A stretch of 52,660 bases of DNA, from the NCBI GenBank assembly GCA_025463005.1, contig JAOAPR010000117.1, positions 1-52,660 of the forward strand, read 5' to 3'. The notes beneath the pieces are model-generated. The model ran no database searches. It saw nothing but the letters and a program-made list of their open reading frames with translations, and was not told the origin of the DNA. The position numbers and the translations under genes are program-made. Positions 26,085 through 52,660 of this stretch are shown piece by piece. This stretch comes from Bryobacterales bacterium (GTDB taxonomy: Bacteria; Acidobacteriota; Terriglobia; Bryobacterales; Bryobacteraceae). Positions within the stretch are counted from its first letter, which is position 1; every line of letters starts with the position of its first letter.

Positions 26085-26124
26085 GACGCGAGAGATTATA
26101 GAATTTAATAGGAGAGCGGAAACC

Positions 26125-36411: not shown

Positions 36412-36499
36412 GGAGGGCGGGCTTCAGCCCGCGCGAGACTTTAGTCTGGCTGGTCGACGTGCTTGGCTATAGCCAAACGCGGCCTTAAGGCCGCCCTCC
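36412..36499. repeat. 88-bp multi-hairpin palindromic element
   Basis: Outer arms GGAGGGCGG (36412-36420) and CCGCCCTCC (36491-36499) are perfect inverted repeats. Inside lie four more hairpins: GCGGGCTTCAGCCCGC (36417-36432), AGACTTTAGTCT (36436-36447), TTGGCTATAGCCAA (36463-36476) and GCGGCCTTAAGGCCGC (36479-36494). The layout is cloverleaf-like. It lies 1 base after the binding-protein stop and 30 bases before the broken ankyrin gene. It may be a terminator or a dispersed REP-like element. No mobile-element gene is next to it. Confidence 0.7.
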
Positions 36500-36529
36500 T
36501 TGGTGTATCTTGCCTTAGGGAGGCTTTGC

Positions 36530-37860
36530 ATGCAGCTTCGCTATGTAGCGATTCTTGGGGCCATGGCCGTCTGCGTTCGCCTAGCCCAAACCCAACAACC
36601 CGCGCCTCCCGCGTCGCCCCGGGCATTCCTCGATCAGTATTGCGGGCGCTGATTGAAAAACTGCTCAAATCCGGGGCGGATCCGGATACGCTGTCGGCGC
36701 CGCAGGGCGAAACGGTGCTGATGGCCGCGGCGCGCGTGGGCAACGTAGAGGCGGTGAAGACGCTGCTCGACAACGGGGCTTATGCAGACGCTCGCGAGAA
36801 TTTTCGCGGCCAGACCGCGCTGATGTGGGCCGCCGCGGAGGGCCATCCTGATGTGATCAAGCTGCTGGTGGCCAAGGGCGCCAATATCAACGCCCGCTCC
36901 TCGGATCGCGATACGACTCCGCCCAAGATGGAGGCGGGAACGCCGTATGCGCCTATCGCGCGGGGCGGTCTATCGGCGCTGCAGTTCGCGGCTCGCCAGG
37001 GCCAGATAGATGCCGGCAAGGCGCTGCTCGAGGGCGGAGCCGATATCAACCAGAAGGATTCGGACGGAAACAACGCGCTGGTAGTAGCATTGCTGAACAG
37101 CCATTACGATTTCGCGCAGTTCTTAATCGATAGCAAGGCGGATCCGAACGTGGCGAATAAGGACGGCCGCACGGCGCTGTACACCGCTGTAGAGATGCAC
37201 GACGCCGACTGGTCGCCGTTGCCCGCGCGCAAGGTGGAGGAAAAAACTACAAGCCTGGAGATCATCCGATCGCTGCTGGCGCACGGCGCGAAAGTGAACG
37301 CGCAGCTTACGGCTCCGAGCCCGATCGTCAAGATGGCGCAGGATACTGGCGATCGCACTCTGGGCGCCGGCGCGACGGCGTTCATGCGGGCTGCCCGCAG
37401 CGCGGATACGGAAGTGATGCAGATGCTGCTGGAGAAGGGCGCCGATGCGAAGCTCGCCAACAAGGACGGCCTTAACGCGCTGATGGTGGCGTCGGGTGTG
37501 AGCTGGGCGGATAAGATCCGCGGAACGGAAGCGCAGGCCCTGGAAGCCGTGAAACTGTGCGCGGCGAGCGGTCTGGACGTCAATACCGCGACCGACAAGG
37601 GCGATACAGCTCTGCACGGAGCCGCCAACCGCGGCGCCGACTCGATCGTGAAGTATCTGGCCGAACAGGGCGCCACCCTGGATGTGAAGAACAAGCAGGG
37701 GATGACTCCTCTCGACCTCGCGATGGGCAAGACTCCGCGTACCCCGGAAGGCGGAGGTTCGCCTCGTCCGGCGCACGAGAGCACGGTCGCGCTGCTGCAG
37801 CAGTTGCTGGGAACTTCGACCGCCTCTGCCGCGAATAAGACCGAGCAGCAGGATCAATAA
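36530..37860 (+). pseudogene. Cytochrome c-ankyrin fusion gene broken inside the haem motif
   Basis: ATG 36530 follows AGGGAGG and begins a signal peptide (MQLRYVAILGAMAVCVRLAQ). The frame then reads PRAFLDQYCGR and stops at TGA 36650-36652. The last codons are TGC GGG CGC TGA, where a CxxCH cytochrome would give TGC-x-x-TGC-CAC. A different reading frame then continues without a break for about 400 codons of ankyrin repeats (KLLKSGADPDTLSAPQGE onward) to 37860. The simplest reading is a deletion from within the haem motif into the ankyrin part, perhaps through the short match GCGCTG. The ankyrin part has no good start of its own, so it may be untranslated. An assembly error is the alternative. 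Confidence 0.6.
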
Positions 37861-37873
37861 AGAGCCACGCGGC

Positions 37874-38545
37874 TCATTCCGCGCGAAGCGCGTAGCCGAT
37901 TCCGCGAACAGTTTGCAGAAGCTTGGATTCGCCAGGCAGCTCGATCTTGCTGCGCAGCAGACGCATAAATGCGTCCAGAGTGTTGCTCTCGATATCGGCG
38001 CCGTGTCCCCAAACGCTTTCGATCACCCGATCGCGCGGCAACACGCGGCCGGCGTGGCGCATGAGCAGTTCGAGGATGGCGAACTCGGTTCGGGTCAGCG
38101 ACAGAGTGCGCGAGCCGCGGCGGACTTCGCGCGTGCCGGGGTCGAGCGACAGATCGAGGGTTCGGAGGTGCGCCGGCTGCGGGATCGGCCCGCGCCGGGA
38201 CACAGCGCGGATGCGGGCGAACAGAACGTCGAAGGAAAACGGCTTGGTCAGGTAGTCATCGGCGCCCAGATTCAGGCCCTCGACGATATCTTTGGCGCTG
38301 TCGCGCGCAGTCAGCAGCAGGATCGGCGTGCGGTTCTTTTCCGCTCGGAGGCGGCGGACAACGGTGAAGCCGTCGGTTCCGGGGAGCAGAACATCGAGGA
38401 GGATCACGTCGAACTCTCCGCTTTGAGCCAGGGCCAAGCCGTTCGTGCCGTCGAGCGCAACGGTGACGGAATGCCCTTCCTCATGCAGAGCCTGGCGCAA
38501 CAGTTCGGCCAGCCTGCTTTCGTCTTCAACGACCAGGATCCGCAT
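37874..38545 (-). CDS. OmpR/PhoB-family response regulator, no adjacent kinase
   Basis: This 223-residue protein has a receiver domain with phospho-acceptor Asp51 (VILLDVLLPG), acidic Glu7/Asp8 and Lys101. A winged-helix DNA-binding domain follows (SLTRTEFAILELLMRHAG, VDAFMRLLRSKIE-type end). It should be a transcription factor activated by a histidine kinase, but no kinase gene is adjacent. The short spacing to the divergent DUF4159 gene (74 bases) makes that gene a possible target. Confidence 0.9.
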   Translation of the reverse strand: MRILVVEDESRLAELLRQALHEEGHSVTVALDGTNGLALAQSGEFDVILLDVLLPGTDGFTVVRRLRAEKNRTPILLLTARDSAKDIVEGLNLGADDYLTKPFSFDVLFARIRAVSRRGPIPQPAHLRTLDLSLDPGTREVRRGSRTLSLTRTEFAILELLMRHAGRVLPRDRVIESVWGHGADIESNTLDAFMRLLRSKIELPGESKLLQTVRGIGYALRAE

Positions 38546-38619
38546 CGCCTACCACCATCCTACGCTGGCGTATAAATGCCCGTGTCCACCTCGACCCGGC
38601 GCTACAATGAGTACACGAG

Positions 38620-39438
38620 ATGAGAATCGGTCCTGTTAAAGTTGCCCTGGTGGCGGCGGGCCTTCTGGGGCTTGCAGCAGTAGCCTATTCTCAGCGGTTC
38701 GGCCGTCGCGGATTTAGCTCCGAAGCTCCTCAATCGGAATTTTCACCCAACGCCGAATTTCACTTCCTGCGCGTCGAGTATACCGACTATACGCGCCGCG
38801 GATTCGGCAATGTTTCGCGCCGGGGAAGAGCTTCGGGCTGGTGGGCGCAGGATTGGCCCGATGCTGACGAACACTTCACAAGCGGAGTGAATCGGTTGAC
38901 GCGGATGGATGCGGGAGATCCGCAGCACGTGTCCCTGACCGATGAGAAGCTTTTCGATTATCCCTGGCTCTACGCGACGCAAACCGGCTACTGGACGCTC
39001 TCCGATGCGGAGACTTCGCAGCTCCGCGAATTTCTACTGCGGGGCGGCTTTATAATGACTGACGATTTCTGGCAGGAGCGGGAATGGGAAGTCTTCCAAG
39101 AGACCATGAATCGTGTTTTCCCCGGCCAGCCCATCACTGATATCGGGCTGGACGATTCGGTGATGCACGTACTGTACGACATCCAGCAGAAAGACCTGAC
39201 CTTCATCCCCGGATCGCGACATCTGGGTCCCGGAGGGGCCGTTTATCAGCCGGCAGGAACCACGCCTAAGTGGCGAGCCATGTATGACGAGAAGAACCGC
39301 ATGGTGGTCGCCGTCAATTTCAACACGGACATCGGCGACGCCTGGGAGTTCGCCGACGTCCCGTATTACCCTGAGGCGATGACCACGCTGGCCTATCGCT
39401 ACGGGATCAACTATTTGATCTACTCCGTCACGCATTAG
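38620..39438 (+). CDS. DUF4159 secreted protein
   Basis: This 272-residue protein has an N-terminal signal or anchor (VALVAAGLLGLAAVAYSQ) and the DUF4159 pattern (FHFLRVEYTDYTRRGFG, LSDAETSQLREFLLRGGFIM, NFNTDIGDAWEFAD). DUF4159 has a flavodoxin-like or ThuA-like fold of unknown activity and is often near AAA-ATPase/DUF58 sets; none are here. It is followed after 25 bases by the FHA-GAF-cyclase gene, so it may be in the same operon. Its role is unknown. Confidence 0.8.
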   Translation: MRIGPVKVALVAAGLLGLAAVAYSQRFGRRGFSSEAPQSEFSPNAEFHFLRVEYTDYTRRGFGNVSRRGRASGWWAQDWPDADEHFTSGVNRLTRMDAGDPQHVSLTDEKLFDYPWLYATQTGYWTLSDAETSQLREFLLRGGFIMTDDFWQEREWEVFQETMNRVFPGQPITDIGLDDSVMHVLYDIQQKDLTFIPGSRHLGPGGAVYQPAGTTPKWRAMYDEKNRMVVAVNFNTDIGDAWEFADVPYYPEAMTTLAYRYGINYLIYSVTH

Positions 39439-39463
39439 CCTCCGATATAACGGTTACTGCGTC

Positions 39464-41068
39464 ATGGGCGCCTGTTCCTTATTCATCAAAGAACCGGACG
39501 GTAAGAAGCGAGTGGTGCCGATCGAGCGGCCGACCTTGTCTCTGGGCAGGGCTCAAGACAATGATGTGGTTCTCACCGATAGCGAACTGCGGGTGTCCCG
39601 ACGCCACGCGGTGATCGAGTGGAATCCCGAGAGTGGCGCCACTCTTCGCGACGAACGCGCGGTGAACGGCACCTTCGTCAATAAACAGAAGGTCACGGCT
39701 CCGGTAGCACTGCATGGCGGCGATGTGATCAGCATCGGCCCGCATGAGATTGTGTTCCGGGAGGAGAAATCGGGCGGCTTGCCGTGGAAGATTGAAACGG
39801 GCGCGGTCGACTTGCGCGCGCTGCAAAAGCCGCAAGAGCCTGCCGAGGAAGCCCCGCGGCTCAAGGCATTGGAACTGTTGAATGAGGTCGGCTTGAAACT
39901 GGCGGGCACGCATACGCCGTCGGAAGTGATGAAGGAAGCGATCCAGTTGCTCTTCAGGATTGAAGGCGTGCAGCGCGCCACCTTATGGCCGTGGGATGAG
40001 AAGGAGCGCTGCTTTCATCAGATGCCACTGGAGACACGCGCCGGGTTCGATCAGCTTTCCGCGCCGATGTTCGATCCTCAGAATCTGGTCCTGAGCAGCA
40101 CCATCCTGAATCAGGTCCGGCAACAGAACAAGCCTCTGCTGATTCGCGATATCAAATCGTCGGAGTTCAGCCTTTCGAAAAGTATCGTGCGCGCCGGGAT
40201 TCAGGCTGCTTTTTGCTCGCCCGTCACGTCGCAAGGACGTTTGCTGGGGGTGATGTACGCCGACAATCTGATGCGCTCCGACGCCTTTTCGCAAGAGGAC
40301 TTCCAGACCTTTACGATCATCGCCGCTCAGGCGGGCATGGCCCTGGCGAACAGCCTGGCGCGCCAGGAAATTTCGCGACAAGACGTGGAGCGCGCGAATC
40401 TAAGCCGCTACCTGCCGCCCCAAGTGGTCGACTTGATCACCTCCAAGGGCGGATCGGTGGAATTGGGCGGAGTGCTGCAGCCAGTGACCGTGCTGTTCGC
40501 CGATATCCGCGGCTTCACGCGCCTTTCCGAGCAGATGGACGCGCGTGAGGTGGTGGACCTCCTGAATGACTTTTTCGCCGTAATGACGGGCGCAATTTTC
40601 CGATCGAATGGCACGCTCGACAAATTCATCGGCGATTGCGTGATGGCGCTGTTCGGCGCGCCGATCCCGTCCGAGCGCAGCCCGAGAAACGCGCTGGTCG
40701 CCGCGGTGCGGATGCAGCAACAAGTTTCGCGGCTGGGTGAAGAACGGGTCCAGCGCGGGCTGGCTCCCATGAGGATCGGAATCGGGCTGCACCACGGCCC
40801 GGCGGTCGTCGGCAACATCGGGTCGGCGGAGCGGATGCAATATACCGCGATCGGCGATACGGTGAACGTCGCAGCCAGGCTGGTTAGCCGGGCGGAACCG
40901 GGCCAGATTCTGATTTCTGAAACCATGTATGAATCGGCCGGCGGCGGCGATCTGTTCCACGACTTGGGCCAGATTAGCGTCAAGAACCGCGACGCGCAGT
41001 TGCGAGTGTACTCGGTGGACTGGGAACGCATTGTGCAGGGAACCCCGGCTGCCAGCTCCGCATCGTGA
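39464..41068 (+). CDS. FHA-GAF-class III nucleotidyl cyclase
   Basis: This 534-residue signalling protein has an FHA domain (residues 1-97; Gly28-Arg29, Ser45-Arg46-Arg47-His48, Asn68-Gly69-Thr70) that reads phosphothreonine. A GAF sensor domain follows (about 140-300), then a class III cyclase domain (about 335-520). Metal ligands Asp347 (LFADIRGF) and Asp391 (FIGDCVMALFGAP), Lys387 and YTAIGDTVNVAARL are all present. Thr461 is of the adenylate-cyclase type, so cAMP is the likely product, though cGMP is not excluded. The MBL-fold hydrolase gene follows after 6 bases. It is cytoplasmic. Confidence 0.92.
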   Translation: MGACSLFIKEPDGKKRVVPIERPTLSLGRAQDNDVVLTDSELRVSRRHAVIEWNPESGATLRDERAVNGTFVNKQKVTAPVALHGGDVISIGPHEIVFREEKSGGLPWKIETGAVDLRALQKPQEPAEEAPRLKALELLNEVGLKLAGTHTPSEVMKEAIQLLFRIEGVQRATLWPWDEKERCFHQMPLETRAGFDQLSAPMFDPQNLVLSSTILNQVRQQNKPLLIRDIKSSEFSLSKSIVRAGIQAAFCSPVTSQGRLLGVMYADNLMRSDAFSQEDFQTFTIIAAQAGMALANSLARQEISRQDVERANLSRYLPPQVVDLITSKGGSVELGGVLQPVTVLFADIRGFTRLSEQMDAREVVDLLNDFFAVMTGAIFRSNGTLDKFIGDCVMALFGAPIPSERSPRNALVAAVRMQQQVSRLGEERVQRGLAPMRIGIGLHHGPAVVGNIGSAERMQYTAIGDTVNVAARLVSRAEPGQILISETMYESAGGGDLFHDLGQISVKNRDAQLRVYSVDWERIVQGTPAASSAS

Positions 41069-41074
41069 GAAGCC

Positions 41075-41908
41075 ATGGAACCCGGCCACAAATTGCAGTT
41101 GCGATTCTGGGGAGTCCGCGGATCGACGCCCGCGCCCGGCAAGGACAAGCTGGTCTACGGTGGCAACACTCCGTGCGTAGAAATCCGGACGGCATCCAAC
41201 CAGGTTTTGGTATTCGACGCAGGATCGGGAATGCGCGAACTGGGGCATCAGCTCGCCAGTGAGTTCGCCGGGCAGGATCTCTCGGTACACCTGTTCCTGA
41301 CGCATTTTCACTGGGATCATATTCAGGGCCTTCCCTACTTCCAGCCGCTGTTCTCGCCGGACACGCGACTCAACGTTCACTCCTGGACGTCGGGCCAGGA
41401 AACCCGGCGCGTGCTGGAAGGTCAGATGGGGACTCCGTATTTTCCGGTAAACTTCGCAGACGTCTCGGCGCGGGTTCGCTTTGCGCAGATGAAATCCGAG
41501 CGCGTGAAGATCGGCGATGTCTCGGTGGAATCGTTCCCGCTGAATCATCCCCAGGGAGCTTATGGATACCGCATTGAGGCCGGCGGCAAGAGCATCGTCT
41601 ATGCAACGGATCTGGAGCATGGCGATGCCAAGTTCGATGGAGTATTGCGCGACTACGCGTCGGGTGCCGATGTCCTAATTTATGACGCGCAGTACAACGA
41701 TGAAGAGTACGCCTCACATCGCGGATGGGGCCACAGCACGTGGCACGAGGCGACCCGTGTTGCGCGGGACGCGGGCGTCGGGAGATTATTCCTGTTCCAC
41801 TTTGATCCGGCTCATACGGATGCTCGGGTAGCGGAATCCGAGCGGCTGGCGGCTGCGGAATTCGAGGCGGCTTGCGCGGCTCGGGAGGGATCGGTGCTGC
41901 TGCTTTGA
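41075..41908 (+). CDS. Metallo-beta-lactamase-fold hydrolase next to the cyclase
   Basis: This 277-residue MBL-fold protein has the metal motif LTHFHWDHIQG (His77, His79, Asp81, His82). It also has His158, Asp179 (YATDLEHGD) and the C-terminal GHSTWHEA region of the PhnP/RNase Z-like phosphodiesterase branch. There is no signal peptide. It starts 6 bases after the FHA-GAF-cyclase and is probably co-translated with it. Some MBL proteins of this branch cut cyclic phosphodiesters, so it may degrade the cyclase product. That link is inference. Confidence 0.85.
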   Translation: MEPGHKLQLRFWGVRGSTPAPGKDKLVYGGNTPCVEIRTASNQVLVFDAGSGMRELGHQLASEFAGQDLSVHLFLTHFHWDHIQGLPYFQPLFSPDTRLNVHSWTSGQETRRVLEGQMGTPYFPVNFADVSARVRFAQMKSERVKIGDVSVESFPLNHPQGAYGYRIEAGGKSIVYATDLEHGDAKFDGVLRDYASGADVLIYDAQYNDEEYASHRGWGHSTWHEATRVARDAGVGRLFLFHFDPAHTDARVAESERLAAAEFEAACAAREGSVLLL

Positions 41909-43363
41909 TTACTTGGTCGGATTACGCGGGAACTTCAGGTAGGGCATCCGTATGCCTTCGATGAACACGCGATCGGCACGAGAATCGGGAGCCGCTTCGA
42001 AGTCCTGCGCGGCAAGCGCCGTCACGTAGTCGTCCTGCTCCACGCCGTCGCCGCTGACGCCTAAGCCGCCTACAAGAACGCCGTTCTTGTATAGCGGCAG
42101 AGCACCAGGGAAGAATACGATCCCGTTCTGATTGGGATTGACCGGCTGCGATCCCTGCGTACATGGGTTCGTCGTGTCTTTCACGTACAAGTCGAAAAAC
42201 GGTCCCCGATCTGAGCCGTCAATGCCCGGCGGGAAAAACGGCTGCGCTCCGAAACCAATCGTTCGATTCGTGACGGCAGTGCCCGCGGGGATTCCCGGCA
42301 AATCTCCGGAGCCAGCAGGACTGCTGAAGTAGACCATGTTGCGCGCCTTGGCCACGGCCACATCAATGCTGAAAAAAGTCGCATCCGGCATGCGATGCAA
42401 GCCGAGGACGGTTCCGTCGAGATCTGTTACCGCGATCACCATGCGCGTACGGGAACCGATCGGCAAACGAATCACGGCTCGGGTTTTATTGGCTGTTTCT
42501 ATCGCGCGATCGAGGATCTGCCGGACTTCCAACGCGGAAAGCAGGGAACCGCTCTGGGGCGCGACCAGATCGCCTTCCGGCGCGGCCGCCGGACTATCGA
42601 GGGGGCCGATCAGGAAGTCTCCCTGTAGATCGCCTGCGGCGATTCCATCGGGCGTGGTGGTTTGACTCACGAAGGGGAGCTCGATTCCATCGATAAAAAT
42701 CACGCCAGGGGCAGCGGGAGTGGGGCCGAATCCTGCGCCGATGGCGCCTTGAAACGCCGCGTATTCGACAACGGGGGCGGATACGCCTGCGACGCCGATA
42801 CCGCCGACTACGACCCCGTTCCTGAACAACGGCACGCCACCAGGATTCACCGCGTCGGGATTGCTGTCGGTCAGATCCGCTTTGCCGGTCATGATTCCCA
42901 GGCCCGGTTGCGTTCCATCGATGGAGCGCGCCGGCGGAACTTCCTTGCCGGGGACGAATGTCGTATTGAACCCGCATCCGCGATTGGTGCTTTCGATCCC
43001 GTACAGCGCGGCGTTGGGGGTGAAGCTGATGCCCGGCGGGAAGTGCACGCCGCTGATGAAACGAACCGTGCGGCTGGAAAGCGGAGCCTGATTGTTGCTG
43101 AAGAACGACGCCGTTCGTGCCAGCGCGACCGCCAATTCATTGGTGTCCACGCTTGCGCCGAAGTTACCGGTGGCGGTATCGGGTGCGTCCGGAGCGCGGA
43201 ACAGCCCCAGAATACTACCCTGGCGATTGGTGACGGCGATGGCCACGCCTCGCGAGCCCACCGAGGTCGCGGCGTGTTCGACGATGGAGCGAACCTCGTC
43301 CGCGCTGAGCTCCTGTCCAAAGGCCGCGCACGCCACCAACGCCGCCCAAAGAATATGTTTCAC
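41909..43363 (-). CDS. Secreted protein with two GlcG/HbpS haem-binding-like domains
   Basis: This 484-residue protein has a signal peptide (MKHILWAALVACAAFGQ) and two copies of the DUF336 (GlcG/HbpS) fold. Each has the pattern VRSIVEHAATS...VAIAVTNRQGSILGLFR, then a G-rich loop (VGGIGVAGVSAPVVEY in the first, VGGLGVSGDGVEQDD in the second). HbpS binds haem in Streptomyces. Here the haem ligand cannot be assigned. Its ATG overlaps the stop of the five-haem cytochrome gene (ATGA), so the two are coupled. It converges with the MBL gene with no gap. Confidence 0.84.
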   Translation of the reverse strand: MKHILWAALVACAAFGQELSADEVRSIVEHAATSVGSRGVAIAVTNRQGSILGLFRAPDAPDTATGNFGASVDTNELAVALARTASFFSNNQAPLSSRTVRFISGVHFPPGISFTPNAALYGIESTNRGCGFNTTFVPGKEVPPARSIDGTQPGLGIMTGKADLTDSNPDAVNPGGVPLFRNGVVVGGIGVAGVSAPVVEYAAFQGAIGAGFGPTPAAPGVIFIDGIELPFVSQTTTPDGIAAGDLQGDFLIGPLDSPAAAPEGDLVAPQSGSLLSALEVRQILDRAIETANKTRAVIRLPIGSRTRMVIAVTDLDGTVLGLHRMPDATFFSIDVAVAKARNMVYFSSPAGSGDLPGIPAGTAVTNRTIGFGAQPFFPPGIDGSDRGPFFDLYVKDTTNPCTQGSQPVNPNQNGIVFFPGALPLYKNGVLVGGLGVSGDGVEQDDYVTALAAQDFEAAPDSRADRVFIEGIRMPYLKFPRNPTK

Positions 43364-44649
43364 GGCAGCACCTGGTTGAGCGCGCGCATCTGCTCGGCAA
43401 ATTTCGGGGCGTTGTACGCTGACGGATTCTCTACCTGCTGAAACAGCGCCCGCAGTCCGGCTCGGATCTGCGTATCGTTGGCCGCGGGCGTCTGAGATAC
43501 GGAGGCGAGGTAAAGCGCCTGGAGCGCCATGGCTGCCTGTTCCGCAGCACGCTCGCCCTGCCGCGAAATGTAGTCGCCATCCCGCGCGATGGCCTGAAGC
43601 AAGCGCTGGGTACGCGCCTGATCGAACGGTGCGGCCGCTATCTGCTGCGCCAGACGGCCCGCTATTTCGGACGTCGCTCGCGCTTGTGCGGCGGCCTGCG
43701 TGCGGTCCGCGTTTCCCGAGCTCATGATCGCGTACAGCTTTTCGACTTCCGTTTCCAGACGGCGGCCGCCCTCGCGATCCACCTCGTTTACGATCTGGCG
43801 GAGCACAGCGTACCTCGACACGTTCCAGGGCGGGTTTCCGGCGCGGCGTCCGGCGTATCCAAGCTCCTGGCGCCAGCTATTCTCGGCATTGGTCAGACTG
43901 TGGTGGCACGCGAAGCAATCGAGGTCAGCGAACTCGGGCCAGGCTTTCGCTTGGGCTTTGCTTTGGGTGTCGCGGGCGACGCGCTGCAACTGCTCGCGTA
44001 ATTGAACGGCCTGACCTGTTGCCAGCATGCGAACGTCGACGAAAGGATCCTCTTCCTTCCAGTGGCGCGGCATCGCAGCCGTGAACGACGCGAGTTCGAA
44101 GTACAAATCCGGATGTCCGGCGGCGATCATCTCATGGTCGACAGCCTTGTCCGCGCTGCCCAGGTGACAGGTGAGGCAATTCTCAGCGCGACGCACGGGA
44201 TCGCGCAGGTCGCGCATTCCGGCCGCGATAGAGCGTTCGTGCGTCCAGCCGCGCGTCGTGTGCGGACCCAGCCAGTTCGACGCTGGACCATGGCAGGATT
44301 CGCAACTCACGCCGTCAGTGGAATCGAACGTCCTCGCCCGCTCGGCCTCAGGGACGCTAAGCGCGTGGCACCCGAGACACTTCGGCGCGGCATCCGCTTT
44401 CTCGACCCCCAGAATCTTGGCCATGCGCACGGCCACGGGATTGGCCAGCGCCGCAAACGCGTGCGCGTGCTTGTCCTTGACCACCCACGTGCTGTACTCG
44501 TTCTGCTGTACGGAAGTGTTGGTGCGAATCTGCACTCCCCCGTGACAACTGGGCGAGGCACACGAACCGGGCCCGGTATATTTGGGCGGCTCCGCGGTCT
44601 GAGCGAGCAACATACCAGACCACAACACCAGCCATACAGCTAGATGCAT
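43360..44649 (-). CDS. Five-haem periplasmic cytochrome c (c554-like)
   Basis: This 429-residue protein has a signal peptide (ends near residue 18). It carries five haem-attachment sites: an unusual CX4CH (Cys30, Cys35, His36), CLGCH (91-95), CESCH (116-120), CLTCH (158-162) and CFACH near residue 226. The layout resembles the cytochrome c554 family. ATG 44649 follows GAGAGGAAAC. The frame continues open to 45774 but only on the antisense of the NuoEF gene. It is divergent from the redox operon (54 bases) and heads a unit with the GlcG-like gene, so it may exchange electrons with that system. Confidence 0.85.
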   Translation of the reverse strand: MHLAVWLVLWSGMLLAQTAEPPKYTGPGSCASPSCHGGVQIRTNTSVQQNEYSTWVVKDKHAHAFAALANPVAVRMAKILGVEKADAAPKCLGCHALSVPEAERARTFDSTDGVSCESCHGPASNWLGPHTTRGWTHERSIAAGMRDLRDPVRRAENCLTCHLGSADKAVDHEMIAAGHPDLYFELASFTAAMPRHWKEEDPFVDVRMLATGQAVQLREQLQRVARDTQSKAQAKAWPEFADLDCFACHHSLTNAENSWRQELGYAGRRAGNPPWNVSRYAVLRQIVNEVDREGGRRLETEVEKLYAIMSSGNADRTQAAAQARATSEIAGRLAQQIAAAPFDQARTQRLLQAIARDGDYISRQGERAAEQAAMALQALYLASVSQTPAANDTQIRAGLRALFQQVENPSAYNAPKFAEQMRALNQVLP

Positions 44650-44703
44650 GTTTCCTCTCACGATACTCGATGAGCCACGTCGACAACAAATGGCCCCGGG
44701 ATA

Positions 44704-46407
44704 ATGATCGGGGGTCCAGCCGACTATAATTACGGTTTGATCTTCGATGACCTGAGGGAGATTCAGCGCCAGTACGGCTATTTGCCTGCCGATCAACTGG
44801 AGGCTCTCTCGCGGCGCTCCCAAATTCCGCTGCCGCACATCAACGGAGTCGCCGATTTCTTTCCGCATTTTCACCTGTCGCCTCCGCCACGCGTCACGGT
44901 TCAGGTATGCGCGGATATGTCCTGCCATCTGCGCGGCGCCGACGAACTTCGCCGGGACTTGTCGCGGCGGTTCAATGTGATGAGCGACCGAGACATTGCC
45001 ATCACCGACGTCTCGTGTCTGGGCCAATGCGATGGCGCGCCGGCGGTGCGCATCAATGACCACTCCTTTCGCCACGTGAGCGCTCCGCAAGCCGAGGCGA
45101 TCGCGATCGGCGCGCTCGGCGGGAGTGAAATTCGGGCGTTGGACGCTGAGCCACGACGGAACTGCCTGGAGGCCGATCCCTACCAGAACTCGGAACCGTA
45201 TGGTGCGCTTCGAAAGCTGGCCGAAACGCGCGACTTCGATGGAGTGATCGCGCAGCTTAAGGCCGCCGGGCTGTCGGGCCTGGGCGGCGCTGGATTCCCA
45301 ACCGGCGTCAAATGGGAAGCGGTACGAAAAACGCCTGCCGCGGAAAAGTACGTCATCTGCAACGCCGATGAGAGCGAGCCGGGCACCATCAAGGACCGCT
45401 TCATCCTGGGAAATCTCACCCACCTGGTGATCGAAGGCATGATCGTCGCCGGGCTGGTGACGGGGGCGCGCAAAGGGATCCTGTACATTCGCCACGAATA
45501 CGAGCCACAGGAACACTTGATCGCGGAAGAGATTCGCCGGTGTTATGAAAACGGATTGCTCGGCCCGCGCGTTTGCGGTTCGGATCTGCAATTCGATCTG
45601 GAACTCTTTGTCAGTCCTGGGGGATATATCTGCGGCGAAGAGACAGCGCTGATCGAAGCAATCGAAGGCAAGCGCGCCGAGCCGCGCAATAAACCGCCGT
45701 TTCCCGTCTACGAAGGCTTGTGGGGCAAACCGACCGCGCTCAACAACGTCGAAACCTTTGCCAACGTCCCGCAAATCCTCGTCAATGGCGTGGACTGGTA
45801 CAAATCGCAGGGCGTGAACGGGTGCGCGGGGCTAAAATTTATCGGCGTCAGCGGCGACGTTCGCCAACCAGGCGTCTATCTGATCCCGATGGGAACGCCG
45901 ATGGAAGAGGTGATCTTTCAGCATGGCGGCGGAATTGAGGGCGGCAAGCGTCTCAAGGCGTTCGCACCATCGGGCCCCTCGTCTGGGTATTTGCCGGCAT
46001 CGATGGTAGACGTCCGAATCGACTTCAAGTCGCTGGCAGCAGCGGGCTCCATGATGGGATCGGCCGCGATCGTGGTCTGCGCCCAGGGCCGCTGCATGCT
46101 CGATATGGCGCTGAATGCGGTGCGCTTCTTTCGCAACGAATCCTGCGGGAAGTGCGTGCCGTGCCGCAACGGCTCGCAGAAGATGACCGATATTCTGATG
46201 GGTTGGACTCAGGGCAAGGGCGCCGCCGCCGACATGGCTTTGCTCGATGAACTAGCGGAAGCCATGAAGCTCGCTTCCATCTGCGGCCTTGGACAGTTCG
46301 CGCACTCGCCCATCACATCGGTGATCAAACATTTCAGGCCGGAAGTGGAAGCGCACATTTTGGAGCATCGTTGTCCAGAGGGCGTGTGCCCGATGCGAGA
46401 AGCATGA
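44704..46407 (+). CDS. NuoE-NuoF fusion: NAD(P)H-oxidising diaphorase subunit
   Basis: This 567-residue protein fuses a thioredoxin-like [2Fe-2S] NuoE domain (Cys69, Cys74, Cys105, Cys109) to a NuoF domain. The NuoF part has FMN and NAD(H) sites (GLGGAGFPTGVKW 192-204; NADESEPGTIKDR 220-232) and an N3-type [4Fe-4S] site (Cys481, Cys484, Cys487, Cys527). It lacks the C-terminal ferredoxin extensions of HydB. It should oxidise NADH or NADPH in the cytoplasm and pass electrons to the next protein. Its stop overlaps the next ATG by 4 bases. It leads a four-gene redox operon. Confidence 0.9.
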   Translation: MIGGPADYNYGLIFDDLREIQRQYGYLPADQLEALSRRSQIPLPHINGVADFFPHFHLSPPPRVTVQVCADMSCHLRGADELRRDLSRRFNVMSDRDIAITDVSCLGQCDGAPAVRINDHSFRHVSAPQAEAIAIGALGGSEIRALDAEPRRNCLEADPYQNSEPYGALRKLAETRDFDGVIAQLKAAGLSGLGGAGFPTGVKWEAVRKTPAAEKYVICNADESEPGTIKDRFILGNLTHLVIEGMIVAGLVTGARKGILYIRHEYEPQEHLIAEEIRRCYENGLLGPRVCGSDLQFDLELFVSPGGYICGEETALIEAIEGKRAEPRNKPPFPVYEGLWGKPTALNNVETFANVPQILVNGVDWYKSQGVNGCAGLKFIGVSGDVRQPGVYLIPMGTPMEEVIFQHGGGIEGGKRLKAFAPSGPSSGYLPASMVDVRIDFKSLAAAGSMMGSAAIVVCAQGRCMLDMALNAVRFFRNESCGKCVPCRNGSQKMTDILMGWTQGKGAAADMALLDELAEAMKLASICGLGQFAHSPITSVIKHFRPEVEAHILEHRCPEGVCPMREA

Positions 46408-48560
46408 GCGACCTGCGTCTTACCGATCTTCATCTCACAATCGATGGGCACGCTATCACGGTGCCGAGCGGCACGACCGTGTTCGATGCCGCGCGGCTCC
46501 AGGGCATCGCCATCCCGACGCTCTGTCATCAGCAAAACGAAACGCCGGTGGGCGTCTGCCGGCTATGCGTCGTGGAAGCGGGCGGACGTGTCTTGAGCGC
46601 GTCTTGCGTGCGGCCTGCCGAGGAAGGCATGACGGTCTCCACCAACTCCGACAAGGTTCGCAACGTGCGGCGCACGCTGCTCGAGCTGCTGATGGCGGAT
46701 CATCCTTCACCGTGCGCTCGTCAAAACCAGTCGGGCGACTGCGAGCTGGAAACGCTGGCTCGTCAGGAAGGTCTCAACGGCTCGCGCTTTTCGAAGCGCC
46801 TGTCGCCCCGCGGCCAGGACGATTCGTCGCCGGCCATCGCGGTGGATCACGAGGCCTGCATCCTCTGCGACCGCTGCATTCGAGGCTGCGGCGAGATCCG
46901 CAACAATTTCGTGCTGGGCCGCCGCGGCAAGGGTTTCAACGCGGGGATCGCCTTTGATCTGAACCGCCCGATGGGTAACTCGGCTTGCGTTTCCTGCGGC
47001 GAATGCGTGGTCTCTTGCCCCACCGGCGCGCTGACCAATAAGTTCGTAGTGCAGACAGAGCTCGGCGGCGAGCCGGCTGAGGTCGAGGACCTGCTCAAGC
47101 TTCCGTACTTCCAGAACATTTCGGGCACGTTCCTGGAGCTGAATCGTAACGCGGTGGTTCGTCGCCATTTTCGCGCCGGCGATATCATCTGCCGCGAAGG
47201 CGAGTACGGATCCACTGCGTTCTACATTTTGGATGGCACAGCCCAAGTGTTTCTCTCGACGCCCATCGCGCACGTTCACACCGAGGGCGGGGCTAATGGA
47301 TTCTTTCAGCGTCTGGGCAGCCGGCTGCTCGGCCGCAAGCAGGATCGCCGCGAAGGGGAAGTTAACCGGCGCACCATACCGATCGACGCCTCAGTAGATC
47401 TGCCGTACGACAACCCGGTAGCTGAACTCGGTCCCGGCGACCTGTTCGGCGAGATGACCTGCATGAGTCTCTACCCGCGCTCGGCGACTGTGCGAGCGTC
47501 GACGGACTGCATCATGTATGAAATGTTGCGGAACGTCCTCGACATCATGCAGCGCAACAAGAACATCAAGGGACGCTTGGATGAGAATTATCGGCGGCGT
47601 GCGCTGCAAGATCACCTCAAGAACGTTCCGCTGTTCGCTTCTCTCACTCCCGAATTCATCGATTCGCTGCGCGATCGCGTGGAGCTCGTGCGGTTTGGGA
47701 AGGGCGACGTGATTTGCCGGCAGGGCGACGTGGCCGACAGTTTCTATCTGATCCGCATCGGCTTCGTGAAGGTCTCCGAGGACCATCCGCAGGGCGAGCT
47801 GGTGCTCAATTATCTGGGACGCGGCGGGTATTTCGGCGAAATCGGCTTGTTGGGAATGGGGGTAGGGGGCGGTGGACGACGCACGGCCACCTGCGCGGCA
47901 CTCGATCACGTGGAGGTGGTCCGCATCGCAGCCGAAGACTTCCAACGCATGGTGGATTCCTTCCCCGACATCCGCCGCAGTCTGGAAACGGTTGCCGCCA
48001 AGAATCTGGAGCAGAATCGCCAGCGCATGGCGCGAACAATCGATGTGCCGCTCGATAAGTTCCTCGCGCAGGGATTGATGGAAGCGCAGAGCCTGCTGGT
48101 TCTGGATCTCGAAAAGTGCACCCGCTGCGACGCTTGTGTGCGCGCCTGCGCCGATGCGCATGATGGCGTCACGCGCCTGATCCGCGAAGGATTGCGCTTC
48201 GAAAACTACCTGGTCGCGACCTCCTGCCGCCAGTGCCGCGATCCGCTCTGCATGGTGGGGTGTCCAGTGGGCGCGATCCGGCGCCGCCAGTCTCTCGAGG
48301 TCATCATCGAGGACTGGTGCATCGGCTGTGGCCTGTGCGCGAAAAGCTGCCCCTATGGCAACATTACGCTGCATCCGTTCGAAGTGACCATCGATAATCC
48401 CGACGCGCCGGGCAAGCGGGCCGTGGTGACTAAGCAGAAGGCAACGTCGTGCGATCTCTGCACCGAACACGCCGAACCGAGCTGCGTATACGCCTGCCCA
48501 CACGATGCGGCTCATCGTGTGGATCCGAATCAGTTCTTCCAGTCCGTGATTTCCGGGTAA
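46404..48560 (+). CDS. NuoG-like / double cyclic-nucleotide-binding / ferredoxin fusion protein
   Basis: This 718-residue protein combines three parts. Residues 1-215 are NuoG/HydA-like: [2Fe-2S] Cys41, Cys52, Cys55, Cys68; a His-Cys3 site with His100, Cys104, Cys113 but Gln107 in place of its middle Cys; two [4Fe-4S] sites (Cys152/155/158/162 and Cys195/198/201/205). Residues 233-385 and 408-530 are cyclic-nucleotide-binding domains. Both keep the phosphate-cassette FGE (348-350, 477-479) and Arg (359, 493) followed by Ser/Thr-Ala; the first has a 50-residue insertion. Residues 565-718 are a DmsB/HybA-like ferredoxin with four [4Fe-4S] sites. No molybdenum or hydrogenase domain is present. 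Electron flow may be gated by cAMP or cGMP (inference). Confidence 0.9.
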   Translation: MSDLRLTDLHLTIDGHAITVPSGTTVFDAARLQGIAIPTLCHQQNETPVGVCRLCVVEAGGRVLSASCVRPAEEGMTVSTNSDKVRNVRRTLLELLMADHPSPCARQNQSGDCELETLARQEGLNGSRFSKRLSPRGQDDSSPAIAVDHEACILCDRCIRGCGEIRNNFVLGRRGKGFNAGIAFDLNRPMGNSACVSCGECVVSCPTGALTNKFVVQTELGGEPAEVEDLLKLPYFQNISGTFLELNRNAVVRRHFRAGDIICREGEYGSTAFYILDGTAQVFLSTPIAHVHTEGGANGFFQRLGSRLLGRKQDRREGEVNRRTIPIDASVDLPYDNPVAELGPGDLFGEMTCMSLYPRSATVRASTDCIMYEMLRNVLDIMQRNKNIKGRLDENYRRRALQDHLKNVPLFASLTPEFIDSLRDRVELVRFGKGDVICRQGDVADSFYLIRIGFVKVSEDHPQGELVLNYLGRGGYFGEIGLLGMGVGGGGRRTATCAALDHVEVVRIAAEDFQRMVDSFPDIRRSLETVAAKNLEQNRQRMARTIDVPLDKFLAQGLMEAQSLLVLDLEKCTRCDACVRACADAHDGVTRLIREGLRFENYLVATSCRQCRDPLCMVGCPVGAIRRRQSLEVIIEDWCIGCGLCAKSCPYGNITLHPFEVTIDNPDAPGKRAVVTKQKATSCDLCTEHAEPSCVYACPHDAAHRVDPNQFFQSVISG

Positions 48561-48561
48561 T

Positions 48562-49359
48562 ATGCGCATCGACCGCACACATCGGCCGTGGCTGGTGGGA
48601 ACGATCGTCGCGTTCCTCGCGGCGGTGATCGTCTATCTCCCGTACGTGTTACGGACACCCGGCGGACCGCGCGGCGGAACAGCGGTCGGCCTGGCCTTCG
48701 GAATCGCAGGATACGCCGTGATGCTGTTCGAAGGACTGCTGGGCGCGCGCAAGAAGGTTCCGGTATGGCGGTTGGGCCGGACTCAAAAGTGGATGCGCGG
48801 GCATCTGTGGCTGGGCGTTCTGACGTTGCCGCTCATCTTGTTTCACGCAGGCTTTGCTGTCCGGGGCGCGCTTACGGCCGTGCTGATGGTGCTTCTGGTC
48901 ATAGTGGTAGCGAGTGGGATTTTGGGCGCAATTCTGCAACACTACCTTCCCCGCTTGCTCACGACGCGAGTGCCCATGGAGACCATCTACGAAGAGATCC
49001 CGCACGTCCGCGCGCAGCTTCGTGAAGAGGCGGACCAGTTGGTGACAACACTGGCAGTCGAGGCCGAGCACGACGATAAAGTTCGATTTCGTGAAACCTA
49101 CGCTAATTCCATCCGGCCATTTCTGGAAGCTCCTGAGACGGCAGCATCTCCACTTTTCGAATCGTTGCGGCGAACAACACCCGCGGCTCTGCATCAAGCT
49201 CTGGAGGATCTGGAGAACATCTGCGAAGAGGAACGCCAGCTCAGCCGCCAGCGCCGTTTGTACCACTGGCTTCAAGCCTGGTTGTTAGTGCATGTCCCGC
49301 TTTCGGTCGGACTACTGGTGCTGGGCGGCATTCACGCCGTTATGGCGCTACGGTACTGA
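48562..49359 (+). CDS. Membrane cytochrome b-like protein, two predicted haems
   Basis: This 265-residue protein has about five membrane spans (near 10-30, 42-60, 82-100, 105-126, 238-262). Histidines His81 and His95 in one span and His244 and His258 in another are each 14 residues apart. Such bis-His pairs typically hold two b haems stacked across the membrane. The central loop (about 130-235) is charged and probably cytoplasmic. I do not recognise the family by name. It begins 1 base after the Fe-S fusion stop and would carry electrons between it and the periplasmic decahaem cytochrome, perhaps via quinone. Confidence 0.8.
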   Translation: MRIDRTHRPWLVGTIVAFLAAVIVYLPYVLRTPGGPRGGTAVGLAFGIAGYAVMLFEGLLGARKKVPVWRLGRTQKWMRGHLWLGVLTLPLILFHAGFAVRGALTAVLMVLLVIVVASGILGAILQHYLPRLLTTRVPMETIYEEIPHVRAQLREEADQLVTTLAVEAEHDDKVRFRETYANSIRPFLEAPETAASPLFESLRRTTPAALHQALEDLENICEEERQLSRQRRLYHWLQAWLLVHVPLSVGLLVLGGIHAVMALRY

Positions 49360-49362
49360 TCT

Positions 49363-50523
49363 ATGGCCGGACGAACCAGAACCACCAAGAAGCTAGCGCA
49401 GCGCATCGACCTGAATTATTTCAAGCGCACGTATCCGATCCCGCGCTGGAAGCGCATTTTGAGTATCGCCGCCGCCGGTCTGGGCGTCGCGTGGTTTGGC
49501 TGGGCCGGTCTGACCGGCAAGCAGAGCGCGTTCAACGCCGGACCCCTGGCGCAAGGCCACGCGATTCTCACCAACAACTGCTCGTCCTGTCACGTCGCCA
49601 CCGGTGGATTCGGAACCAAAGTCACCGAGACCGCGTGCCTGGTCTGTCATAACGCGCCGATGCATCAGGCCAAGCAAACGTTCACGCCGGCCTGCACATC
49701 TTGCCACGTCGAGCATCAGGGGGCGTTTCGTTTGGCTGCCACCAGCGAAGCTTCGTGTACGCAGTGCCACAGCAGTCTGAAAACCACCGACGGTCGGACC
49801 CGGTTCGCCGCCAGCATCGCGTCATTTAATAGTGGACATCCGGATTTCGACGCGGTGCGGTCCGGACACGCGCCTGATCCCGGGACGATCAAGCTTAGCC
49901 ACCAGGTCCACTTGAAGAACGACCTGAGGGGACCCGACGGACCCGTGCAGCTTCAGTGCGTCGACTGCCATCGTCCGGCTTCCCACACGCGCAACGCTCC
50001 GATGGCGGCAGTGAACTACACGACGCATTGCGCCAGTTGCCATCCGCTTGTGTTCGACAGCCGCTTCACGGAGCCTGCTCCGCATCAGGAGACGAAAATC
50101 GTGCACGACTATGTAGTTCGGAAATACACCGAAGCAAATCAAGGAAACATCGCGCAGAGGGTCGAGGAGGCTGAGCGGCTCTTATGGCAGAAGTCGTGCA
50201 AGGAATGCCACGTGCTTACGTATCCGGCTCCGGGCACGCGTCCTGAAATTCTGAAATCTGCGATTCCGATCCGATGGATGACGCACGCCAAGTTCGATCA
50301 CGAGGCTCACCAGCTCGTGACATGTACGGAGTGTCATGCGCAAGCCAAAACGAGCAACAATACCGCGGATGTGTTGCTCCCCGGCATCGCGACCTGCCAG
50401 AAGTGCCACAGCGGCGGGCGGGTAGCCGCGGATTCCCGGTGCTCGGAGTGCCACGATTATCACGATTGGTCGAAAGCTAAGCCCGCGTCGAGCGTGCACG
50501 CGATCACTGATTTCGCGCGTTAG
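49363..50523 (+). CDS. Ten-haem cytochrome c with N-terminal membrane anchor
   Basis: This 386-residue protein has an uncleaved-looking anchor (about residues 30-50, ILSIAAAGLGVAWFGWAG) and ten CxxCH motifs: CSSCH, CLVCH, CTSCH, CTQCH, CVDCH, CASCH, CKECH, CTECH, CQKCH, CSECH. The pairs and the many extra His suggest bis-His low-potential haems, like c3/c7 or NrfH-like modules. It should face the periplasm and accept electrons from the membrane protein, starting 3 bases before it. The final acceptor is unknown. It converges with the LVIVD gene (5-base gap). Confidence 0.88.
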   Translation: MAGRTRTTKKLAQRIDLNYFKRTYPIPRWKRILSIAAAGLGVAWFGWAGLTGKQSAFNAGPLAQGHAILTNNCSSCHVATGGFGTKVTETACLVCHNAPMHQAKQTFTPACTSCHVEHQGAFRLAATSEASCTQCHSSLKTTDGRTRFAASIASFNSGHPDFDAVRSGHAPDPGTIKLSHQVHLKNDLRGPDGPVQLQCVDCHRPASHTRNAPMAAVNYTTHCASCHPLVFDSRFTEPAPHQETKIVHDYVVRKYTEANQGNIAQRVEEAERLLWQKSCKECHVLTYPAPGTRPEILKSAIPIRWMTHAKFDHEAHQLVTCTECHAQAKTSNNTADVLLPGIATCQKCHSGGRVAADSRCSECHDYHDWSKAKPASSVHAITDFAR

Positions 50524-50528
50524 GGCCG

Positions 50529-52660
50529 TTAGCGCGGCGGGCCCGGCGGCGCGTCCGTGACCGTATAAACCTGCCCGTTGCGTAAAAACAGACGCTCGGC
50601 CTCTTGCTTGTTCAGCGGGCGCGACCCTCGGCGATTGAACACCGCCACCTGGTTCCCGCTCTCATCCACAGCGCGGTCGCGATCGACACCTTTCGAAATC
50701 GCCAGCGCCGGCCCGCGCGTGCGATACGTCGCGATCAGCTTGGGCGTCGGCCGCGGACTGAACCCGAGGTAATTGGGATTGTCGCTCGGCGCGAAAAGCT
50801 GCACGATTCGCATTCCGCCCGAGCCGTCGGCGAGATAAGCGAAGGCACTCGCCGCGGTCATGCCGAGCTTCACATCGTTGGTGTCATGTATCGCGCCGCC
50901 CGCGTTGAAAACCTGGTCGATCACTGGCCTTTCCGGCTTCTCCACATCCACGATCACCAGGCCCTGACTGCCGCCGGCCACGTAGGCGTAGGTGCGCGCG
51001 ACGTAAAGATTGCGCGCGTCGTTCAACTGGAGCCTGGCTCCTGGAAGAACCCGTGGATTCGCCAGCGACGTCACGTCGAGCACTTTCAGGCCATCGCGAT
51101 CGACGATGAACGCGTAGCGGAACTGGACGGCCACGCCGCGCGGATCCACTAAATCCGGCGCGCCGATCTGCGCCGTGACCCTCGGTTGCAGCGGATTGGC
51201 GATATCCACCACCACCAGTCCACGATCCGTCAGGATGTACGCGAACGTTCCTGCAATGGTGATCCGCCTTGCTCCGGTAAGAACACCCCCCGGATTGAAA
51301 GTCGCCGTGCGCTTCAGGAAATTATTGCGCGGATTGCCATCCAGCACGGTTAACACGCCCGGGCTGCGGCTCTTCAGATCGGGATCGCCGACCACGATCA
51401 GTCCCTCTTCGCGATCCGCGACGTACAGGAATCCATACATCAACGCAACGCGCTGCTCTTCATTCTCCTGAATGTGTGTGCGAAGGGGATCAATAGCCAT
51501 CGTCGACGGCGACGCAACCGCAGTGGCGTATTTTGTCTTCAAATAGAACTGCTGACCCAGCGGAGAAACAGGAGCCGTGGTCATCTTTTCGGAGAAGTTC
51601 TTGTTGTCGACATTGGCAACGTCGTAGATTCGAAACCCGTCCTTGCCGAGTGCCGCGTACAGATACTCCCCCCGGAGTTGAAGATCCAGAACGTTGCCGG
51701 CGTGATGATCGGCCTCGGCAATCTCCCGATTGTGTTTCTCAAACCTCGCGAAATCGTCCGGGTACGCGATCTTGTGCAGATCGCTGCCGAACACCGCGGG
51801 AGGATCGTCGTGCTCGGCCACAGTCACGGCATCGAATCCCTTCCCTCCCTCGGCGACAAAGACGTAGCGACCCATCATGTTCACCAGATTGGTCCCTTGC
51901 ATCAGGAGCTGGGCCATCCACGCATTGTTGTCGCCGGCACGCGAGATGTGGCAACTGGTGCAGGTTTTGGTCTCCTTGGCGCGCACCGTGTGCGGATAGT
52001 AGGAGCTGAAGCCGAATCCGCTGAAGCCTTCCGCCGAAATCGTCTGCTGCTGGTAATACAGCCAGTCGCGATTCGCATTCTGCGAGCTCACCACCACGGC
52101 ACAAGTGGAACGCGTCGGCGCAATGCGGCTGCCCGTAACTGTGCCATCCACTCCCAGCATGTAAATGTCGTCGCGCAAGACGTCGAAATTATAGGAAGTG
52201 TAGTTGCGCGTCTCCGTTCCTTCGTTGTGCAGCACTGCCGATTTCGCGTTCGCCCGCATCGGCAGATGGCAGCCGAAACAGCTCGTGGTCCAGGAAGAGT
52301 GGCAGGCGTAGCAGGTCATCCGGTCGTTGCCGTGCGCGAGTTGCTTTTCGTCTTTTTCATTGCCAGGCGCCGAGCCCCACGTGGTTCCGTCCTTCAGCAG
52401 AGTCTTGGCCAGGCGCGAGGCCTCGCTATAGTGCGGATTCCCCGGCGTGATGGTGTCCACCACTTGCACCACTTCCCAGGAACGGCCAGGATCCACGTTC
52501 GATCGCTGATAGATTTTCCCATTCTCCTGATAAAACCGCCGCTGTCCCGAGGCGGTTCGCTGCAGCGAGAGATCCGTTCCCCCAATCGGGGCAGCTGCCG
52601 CGGACGTTCGCAGATTTGCTTTCGACTTCACCGTTCCATGGCAATCCACGCAGTCGATCT
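50529..52660 (-). CDS. Multihaem LVIVD-repeat protein, 5' end cut by window edge
   Basis: At least 710 residues are visible; the start lies beyond the right edge, since CVDCH is read at the very end of the window. Visible haem motifs are CVDCH, CYACH, CFGCH and CTSCH. The C-terminal two-thirds is a beta-propeller of LVIVD-type repeats ([47 protein letters not shown]). It is likely an exported or surface redox protein. The substrate is unknown. It converges with the decahaem gene and may belong to the same electron-transfer setting. Confidence 0.82.

Follow-up and report, generated by a model that had tools for sequence, protein, structure and literature searches.

The 52,660-nucleotide contig JAOAPR010000117.1 of a Bryobacterales bacterium (assembly GCA_025463005.1, 6.36 Mb, 96.3% complete), called the window below and always meant in its whole length, carries an operon of four genes for a predicted electron-transfer chain from NAD(P)H to a multihaem cytochrome, whose central iron–sulfur (Fe-S) protein contains two cyclic-nucleotide-binding (CNB) domains. 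A preliminary description of the region had placed four genes at 44704-50523, separated by a 4-base overlap and by gaps of 1 and 3 bases, and had drawn a path on paper from NAD(P)H through FMN, Fe-S clusters and b haems to a decahaem cytochrome c. The layout is exactly as described, and the domains and motifs of the four products support the path:

44704-46407, + strand: gene 1, NuoE-NuoF fusion (HoxF-like) of 567 amino acids, the predicted electron input, with a predicted FMN/NAD(P)H site and [2Fe-2S] and [4Fe-4S] sites
46404-48560, + strand: gene 2, Fe-S/CNB protein P0002 of 718 amino acids, the predicted hub of the conduit, overlapping gene 1 by 4 bases
48562-49359, + strand: gene 3, predicted di-haem b membrane protein of 265 amino acids with invariant His pairs, after a 1-base gap
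49363-50523, + strand: gene 4, decahaem cytochrome c of 386 amino acids with 10 CXXCH motifs, after a 3-base gap

Gene 1 combines the Pfam domains 2Fe-2S_thioredx, Complex1_51K, SLBB and NADH_4Fe-4S; since the alignments with its homologues mostly begin at residue 12-13, translation may begin further downstream than 44704. The signs of a diaphorase of the NuoEFG/HoxFU type are present according to Pfam, NCBIfam and motif reading, with all matches below the NCBIfam equivalog cut-offs. P0002, the product of gene 2, matches (Pfam/NCBIfam) Fer2_4, NADH-G_4Fe-4S_3, 4Fe-4S domains, cNMP_binding (E 5e-37) and C-terminal 4Fe-4S domains, which are arranged as follows:

46428-47054, + strand: HoxU/NuoG-N/HydA-type head (residues 9-217), with predicted sites for one [2Fe-2S] and two [4Fe-4S] clusters
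47130-47558, + strand: CNB-A (residues about 243-385), cassette FGE...PRSAT, with an insertion at about 295-335
47631-48038, + strand: CNB-B (residues about 410-545), cassette FGE...RRTAT
48093-48524, + strand: DmsB/HydN-type C-terminal ferredoxin (residues 564-707), with 16 Cys, enough for four [4Fe-4S] clusters

The two CNB domains therefore lie between the cluster-bearing halves, and both keep the FGE and the Arg of the cassette (residues 348-350 and 359 in CNB-A, 477-479 and 493 in CNB-B), as had been noticed before. The conservation of these residues was assessed in relatives obtained by scanning genome contigs with P0002, which gave 139 relatives, 80 of which were fetched and compared (L numbers); 79 long-form rows (NuoEF plus P0002 with its head, as in the window), three middle rows and seven deep rows were aligned. 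L083, cut by its contig, and L110, whose gene was missed by the caller, are left out of the row counts, although L083 keeps the Arg in both cassettes. L108 and L111 are unrelated NuoG-like proteins and L107 is a short form with an over-long open reading frame, and none of the three is counted as long-form. Genes were called with a home-made GC-frame method, which overextended some starts (L107, L103 and P0005, the c554-like cytochrome) and missed some genes.

The long-form rows all have Glu350, Arg359 and Ala361 in CNB-A (79 of 79 each), and in CNB-B they have Glu479 in 78, Arg493 in 77 and Ala495 in 79 cases, the exceptions being Arg493 replaced by His (L035) or Tyr (L055) and Glu479 by Val (L075). 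The three middle rows keep the Glu, Arg and Ala of the cassettes. The seven deep rows keep Gly-Glu, but the Arg is found in none of them in either domain, Q/V and W/S standing in its place. Each cassette also holds a cysteine that is absent from all seven deep rows: Cys353 (47460-47462) in cassette A occurs in 79/79 long-form rows and Cys497 (47892-47894) in cassette B in 75/79, and this pair is possibly a redox-sensitive switch. The best Foldseek matches of the P0002 model are the tandem CNB domains of protein kinase G (PKG) I beta with cyclic GMP (cGMP; E 2e-17) and a regulatory domain of protein kinase A (PKA) with cyclic AMP (cAMP; E 9e-17); formate dehydrogenase and NiFe-hydrogenase A subunits rank lower. 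With a CNB fold and the Gly-Glu and Arg of the cassette, P0002 qualifies as a candidate cyclic-nucleotide receptor.

A PF00027 search of the window's genome gave four proteins: P0002, a CNB-DUF1003 protein, a CNB-thioredoxin reductase and a CNB-histidine kinase. No helix-turn-helix domain was matched in these four and no regulator of the CRP type was detected among them, although a CRP could be missing from the assembly since this is only 96.3% complete. The FGE...R-S/T-A cassette is absent, by reading, from the three proteins other than P0002.

The electron-carrying parts of P0002 are also well kept. The head matches the HoxU model (187 bits) and HydA1 (7q4v, E 3e-48), and its Cys sets for the [2Fe-2S] and the two [4Fe-4S] clusters are complete in 79/79 long-form rows. 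At the N5-type site, His100, Cys104 and Cys113 are found in 79/79, but position 107 is never Cys (Q in 68, E in 6, H in 5); since this second Cys is never present, the N5-type cluster is absent or bound differently. Each of the 16 C-terminal Cys is kept in 74 to 78 of the 79 rows, the misses falling in cut or gapped rows (L052, L061, L067) or corresponding to substituted residues (L064, L073, L076). Overall, 27 of the 28 predicted cluster-ligand Cys are kept in at least 76/79 rows, and Cys686 in 74.

Neither Pfam nor NCBIfam gives a match for gene 3 at E 0.001. His81, His95, His244 and His258, two pairs each 14 residues apart, are invariant in 36/36 aligned sequences, short forms included, and the structural model (mean predicted local distance difference test score, pLDDT, 89.9) places the pairs in the long helices 74-96 and 208-264. 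In bis-His di-haem cytochromes b, two His pairs 13-14 residues apart sit on two membrane helices, and we take the spacing in gene 3 to recall the cytochrome b of bc1 complexes. By this His-pair pattern, gene 3 is a predicted di-haem cytochrome b, in which the helices 143-205 would be cytoplasmic according to the positive-inside rule. Membership among the bc1, b6f or b561 cytochromes b was not found (no Pfam match; b561 structure 4o7g at E 0.82, TM 0.14), and the best match of the model among the folds of the PDB reaches only E 0.39. Gene 4 has Pfam matches of the cytochrome c7/c3 type, and its N-terminal hydrophobic stretch suggests that it is membrane-anchored.

The four genes are found in identical order in 71 of the 80 fetched relatives, so their adjacency is not due to chance; a neighbourhood search of this kind for the 718-residue protein had been proposed in the preliminary description. 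Of the nine loci without the full order, five are truncated by the end of their contig (L019, L048, L057, L067, L083); in L076 a fragment is all there is of gene 4, and it lies on the opposite side. The window's genome holds one full copy of P0002, three other proteins with the head alone and one with the CNB domain alone. The relatives are mostly labelled Acidobacteriota or its subgroups, the others Planctomycetota, Rokubacteria, Methylomirabilota and Actinobacteria; the genomes are related and most are draft metagenome assemblies, and many contigs are short. Further genomes (G numbers) were drawn from the phylum (297) and the class (200) and searched at a cut-off of E 1e-60; 16/297 have a match (three full length, eleven short forms, two head only) in the phylum draw and 29/200 in the class draw. 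No relative of P0002 was matched in viral contigs. Three loci with the P0002 gene bear the labels Bordetella parapertussis (L068), Rhodanobacteraceae (L078) and Actinobacteria (L076). The labels or bins look wrong, because L078 falls with Acidobacteriota on the tree and because the locus coordinates of L068 are those of G187, a genome placed in the window's genus.

Besides the long form, there are short forms made of a CNB and four-cluster ferredoxin protein, the membrane protein and the decahaem cytochrome, without a NuoEF gene or NuoG head. When the C-terminal part of 44 rows is placed on a midpoint-rooted tree, a deep clade (100/100) comprises six of the short forms; three more, L101-L103, diverge close to the base of the main clade, where L102 groups with two Planctomycetota. 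The gene cluster is followed by a reductase with FAD, FHA and [2Fe-2S] domains in 6/8 deep loci (L105, L106, L109, L110, L112, L113), confirmed by Pfam in L106, L109 and L113; tblastn found none in the deep loci L104 and L107, nor in L101-L103. In L113 (13265-15562) the enzyme is of the FAD pyridine-nucleotide reductase kind, bears FHA domains and ends in a [2Fe-2S] domain; it stands beside a second FHA protein, and such an additional FHA protein occurs in all six loci. The cluster of L106, L110 and L113 comes after c554-type cytochromes with 5 and 8 haems and a protein whose end has an outer-membrane-like aromatic pattern. The separate branch of six and the reductase in 6/8 deep loci rule out that the short forms are truncated gene calls. 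It seems that the reductase replaces NuoEF in this sister clade, and its FHA domains hint at a control by phospho-threonine instead of cyclic nucleotide. In a third form, the Planctomycetota L081 and L082 have NuoEF and P0002 with no homologue of gene 3 or 4 beside them (8 kb on each side), and in L084 genes 3 and 4 are not seen on a short contig with 2.6 kb behind gene 2. With three forms in existence, CNB and ferredoxin can be read as a core around which NAD(P)H head and output are exchangeable modules. The sister clade would mark where the control changed, since both the cassette Arg and the NuoEF/NuoG head are missing there; judged from these comparisons, head and control are swappable modules.

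The window also encodes, 3.6 kb upstream of the operon, a cyclase that lies outside 44704-50523 and was not mentioned in the preliminary description:

39464-41068, + strand: FHA-GAF-class III cyclase (PF00211, E 1e-28), all three motifs present

It is the only PF00211 match in the 6.36 Mb of the genome, and by this match and its metal and adenine-type residues it qualifies as a predicted class III adenylyl cyclase. As a single cyclase and a single canonical receptor were found, the direct control of P0002 would be the simplest wiring. The distance between P0002 and the nearest class III cyclase (defined by a PF00211 match) was determined in the 76 genomes of the fetched loci and in the window's own. 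It is 20 kb or less in 28/77 genomes, for 1.8 expected if cyclases were placed uniformly at random (P 3e-29, the kinship of the genomes being ignored), and 10 kb or less in 23/77 (expected 0.9 on the same assumption). Where the genome has a single cyclase, this is found within 20 kb of P0002 in 17/35 cases. The presence of a cyclase also follows that of the operon: in the sample of the window's family, 6/6 genomes with full-length P0002 have one versus 6/20 of those listed without (P 0.004; G408, with a diverged P0002 match and one weak cyclase match, was excluded), and in the window's genus 4/4 with the operon versus 1/5 without (P 0.04). Those four genomes have exactly one cyclase each, 5.4 to 9.1 kb from P0002, and in G023, a further genome with the full form, the cyclase lies 10.6 kb away.

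The nearby cyclases are of three architectures: FHA-GAF-cyclase (window, L006, L007), CHASE2-cyclase and cyclase-FHA (near L055 and L060). The CHASE2-cyclases fall into three subfamilies about 25-32% alike, located upstream or downstream in either orientation; in the named strain Granulicella aggregans M8UP14 (L085), a CHASE2-cyclase match lies 7.2 kb from the P0002 gene. The metal motif is present in 31 of 36 cyclase rows taken from near and far (including one repeat of the window's cyclase and two partial or degenerate rows), the adenine-type Lys motif in 34 and the Thr/Ser in 28, a set which we take to be of the class IIIb adenylyl type. Six genomes (L024, L032, L033, L036, L040 and L047) share a conserved long-range spacing: each has a relative of the L017 CHASE2-cyclase (Pfam on one), identically oriented and 64-80 kb upstream.

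Further genes surround the operon and the cyclase:

41075-41908, + strand: MBL-fold hydrolase, 6 bases after the cyclase; its closest relatives of known structure are RNase Z types
41909-43363, - strand: HbpS-like protein, with a close relative in 26/80 fetched loci
43360-44649, - strand: divergent tetrahaem c554-like cytochrome (Pfam)
50529-52658, - strand: LVIVD-repeat multihaem cytochrome, truncated where the contig ends; its full relative in L006 has 1225 amino acids and 10 CXXCH

That the hydrolase is a cyclic-nucleotide phosphodiesterase would be a guess. Of the 71 loci that keep all four genes in order, 63 carry a relative of the c554-like cytochrome (P0005) on the opposite strand and 32 have an LVIVD cytochrome, flanks permitting. 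In L006, L013, L018 and L070, the gene after the LVIVD cytochrome encodes a putative outer-membrane barrel; the window's contig ends before that position. In L006 (15760-17817) and its relatives, this barrel-like protein has 685 amino acids, a CarboxypepD_reg domain and a C-terminal aromatic pattern, with no Pfam porin above the cut-off, and a relative of the L073 copy is present in 27 loci, L073 included. The putative barrel behind the LVIVD cytochrome in these four loci would suit an electron route to the cell surface. Directly downstream of the operon, L073 (12781-14385) also encodes an NADH dehydrogenase of the NDH-2-like kind that bears a fused CNB domain. Elsewhere in the window, two small adjoining genes at 32737-33230 (- strand) look toxin-antitoxin-like by eye, and the first of two adjoining long genes at 23661-27489 (+ strand), a pair which presumably resembles the DUF1592/DUF1552 type, has a CXXCH near its N-terminus.

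Taken together, these data make it fairly probable that the operon encodes a trans-membrane conduit from NAD(P)H to the periplasm which is gated by cAMP or cGMP, with its central Fe-S subunit as the receptor. The HoxF-like subunit would oxidize NAD(P)H at its FMN, and the electrons would pass through the Fe-S clusters of gene 1 to the HoxU/NuoG-like head of P0002 and on to its C-terminal four-cluster DmsB-type ferredoxin. From there a trans-membrane stack of two b haems in the 265-residue protein would lead them to the decahaem cytochrome, then to further cytochromes (the tetrahaem c554-like and LVIVD multihaem proteins) and possibly the cell surface. The neighbouring cyclase would make cAMP (or cGMP), which would bind the CNB domains. 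With the CNB pair placed between them, head and tail could be shifted with respect to each other by nucleotide binding; the change in their distance or contact would open or close the wire with the messenger. The cassette conservation, the PKA/PKG-like tandem CNB model and the recurrence of neighbouring cyclases form strong comparative evidence for the cyclic-nucleotide control that the preliminary description had put forward. The fuller picture, a cAMP-allosteric respiratory, probably extracellular, electron-transfer complex with a PKA-like receptor in its carrier, cyclases recruited repeatedly and heads and control domains exchanged between lineages, is as easily doubted as accepted.

Several observations weigh against gating by cyclic nucleotides. 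The confidence of the P0002 model is modest (mean pLDDT 72.8, predicted TM-score 0.55, below 50 in the 4Fe-4S region of the head), and CNB-B reads R-T-A, as in cGMP receptors, so that the ligand may be either cAMP or cGMP. When the P0002 sequences are clustered, a near cyclase is found in 12/31 clusters at 80% identity and in 2/8 at 70%. No cyclase lies within 20 kb in 49/77 genomes (many contigs being short), among which L008 and L014 are on long contigs; the nearest one is 64-240 kb off on the same contig in nine genomes, PF00211 has no match in 4/76 (L021, L051, L058, L084), and G479 and G517 have a full-length P0002 with cyclases on other contigs only. For a near cyclase, the long and short forms compare as 28/77 versus 1/11 (P 0.07, the sole short-form case being a weak double match in G015), and the three short forms with intact cassettes (G265, G132, G287) have no cyclase nearby.

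It could be that the conduit is real and that the CNB domains control assembly, oligomerization or membrane docking, or sense another ligand, instead of gating. CRP-fold domains that do not bind cyclic nucleotides are common, the deep sister clade, which keeps both CNB domains without the cassette Arg, makes another role possible, and the cassette Cys would suit a redox switch. The preliminary description had named relatives without the cassette Arg as an argument against a receptor: this applies to the sister clade (0/7) but not to the clade of the window, in which the CNB-A Arg is found in 79/79. The almost invariant Glu and Arg of the long form and the recurrence of class III cyclases of several architectures near the operon make this alternative fairly unlikely. 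It is quite improbable that the operon encodes a quinone reductase or a quinone oxidase, or that it runs in reverse from periplasmic cytochromes to NAD+, with the cyclic nucleotide as a brake. Multihaem cytochromes are reversible, there may be room for a quinone site in the b-haem protein, and none of the genes scanned was recognized as a terminal reductase; but these genes include no proton-pumping subunit to drive an uphill transfer, and the potentials from NADH to a decahaem cytochrome would favour outward flow.

The cyclase linkage might also be incidental, inherited with the shared neighbourhood of related genomes, the cyclase serving another target. The kinship of these mostly draft metagenome genomes, the 49/77 without a near cyclase and the 64-80 kb placements in six genomes, which indicate that the distance is not fixed, speak for it. 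However, the three architectures, the varied placements and orientations, the single-cyclase genomes and the co-occurrence of cyclase and operon in the genus and family samples make it improbable. In the rpoB control, which covers all 193 cyclase rows, a cyclase is found within 20 kb in 0/62 genomes with an rpoB match (closest 69 kb, Fisher 4e-9), a comparison weakened by short contigs and by the 15/77 genomes without an rpoB match.

The operon can be compared with several known systems. It shares the NuoE-NuoF fusion and the HoxU/NuoG-N/HydA head with the HoxFU diaphorase/NuoEFG input of NAD-reducing hydrogenases, NAD-dependent formate dehydrogenases and HydABC, but here the polypeptide that forms the head also carries tandem CNB domains and a ferredoxin with four clusters, and the N5-type site is one Cys short. 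Among the genes scanned with Pfam (36463-52658), NuoB, NuoC, NuoD, NuoI and the membrane pump subunits of complex I are absent and no catalytic subunit of a hydrogenase or formate dehydrogenase is matched, so that neither complex I nor an NAD-reducing hydrogenase or formate dehydrogenase accounts for the locus. Ferredoxins of the DmsB/HydN type pair with a membrane cytochrome b in enzymes such as formate dehydrogenase-N and DMSO reductase. The operon has the same 16 Cys for four [4Fe-4S] and an adjoining membrane protein with two His pairs, but it lacks a molybdenum enzyme, would output to a decahaem cytochrome c, and its membrane partner has no Pfam family or significant PDB fold match.

As the operon would, CymA, CbcL-MtoC-MtrH, ImcH and the Mtr porin-cytochrome conduits feed multihaem cytochromes, and the barrel-like gene next to the LVIVD cytochrome in L006 and others may be a further resemblance to the Mtr type. 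Unlike these conduits, the operon would wire NAD(P)H by protein, with a messenger receptor in the carrier. PMC6295460 describes the CymA/CbcL-MtoC-MtrH/ImcH-type systems as quinol oxidases or quinone reductases, and its Table 1 lists 19 ImcH and 2 CbcL-type homologues in Acidobacteria.

With the PKA/PKG regulatory subunits, the operon shares tandem CNB domains with intact cassettes, but here in a redox protein, not a kinase. The CNB-thioredoxin reductases, in which PMC6544261 reports an NAD(P)H redox enzyme joined to a CNB domain, differ from the operon in having a single CNB domain, in being soluble disulphide reductases and in lacking an electron conduit. In Shewanella, cAMP-CRP is reported to tie cAMP to anaerobic respiration and cytochromes, as the control proposed here would. 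The control by cAMP-CRP is transcriptional, whereas the receptor of the operon sits in the electron carrier, and no PF00027 protein of the CRP type was found in the genome.

The preliminary description knew of no system of this make-up, and indeed no description of the operon was found in the open-access literature at the level of titles and abstracts. The gene set is real and conserved, and its predicted conduit is a variant of known trans-membrane conduits with a novel putative control mode. To our knowledge, the cAMP control of bacterial respiration described so far acts through gene expression, and we know of no described respiratory system under direct messenger control. If the gating is true, a second messenger would switch respiration directly, and the cell would open or shut its NADH outlet at once, in the Acidobacteriota, a phylum which is abundant in soils and whose electron outlets are poorly known.

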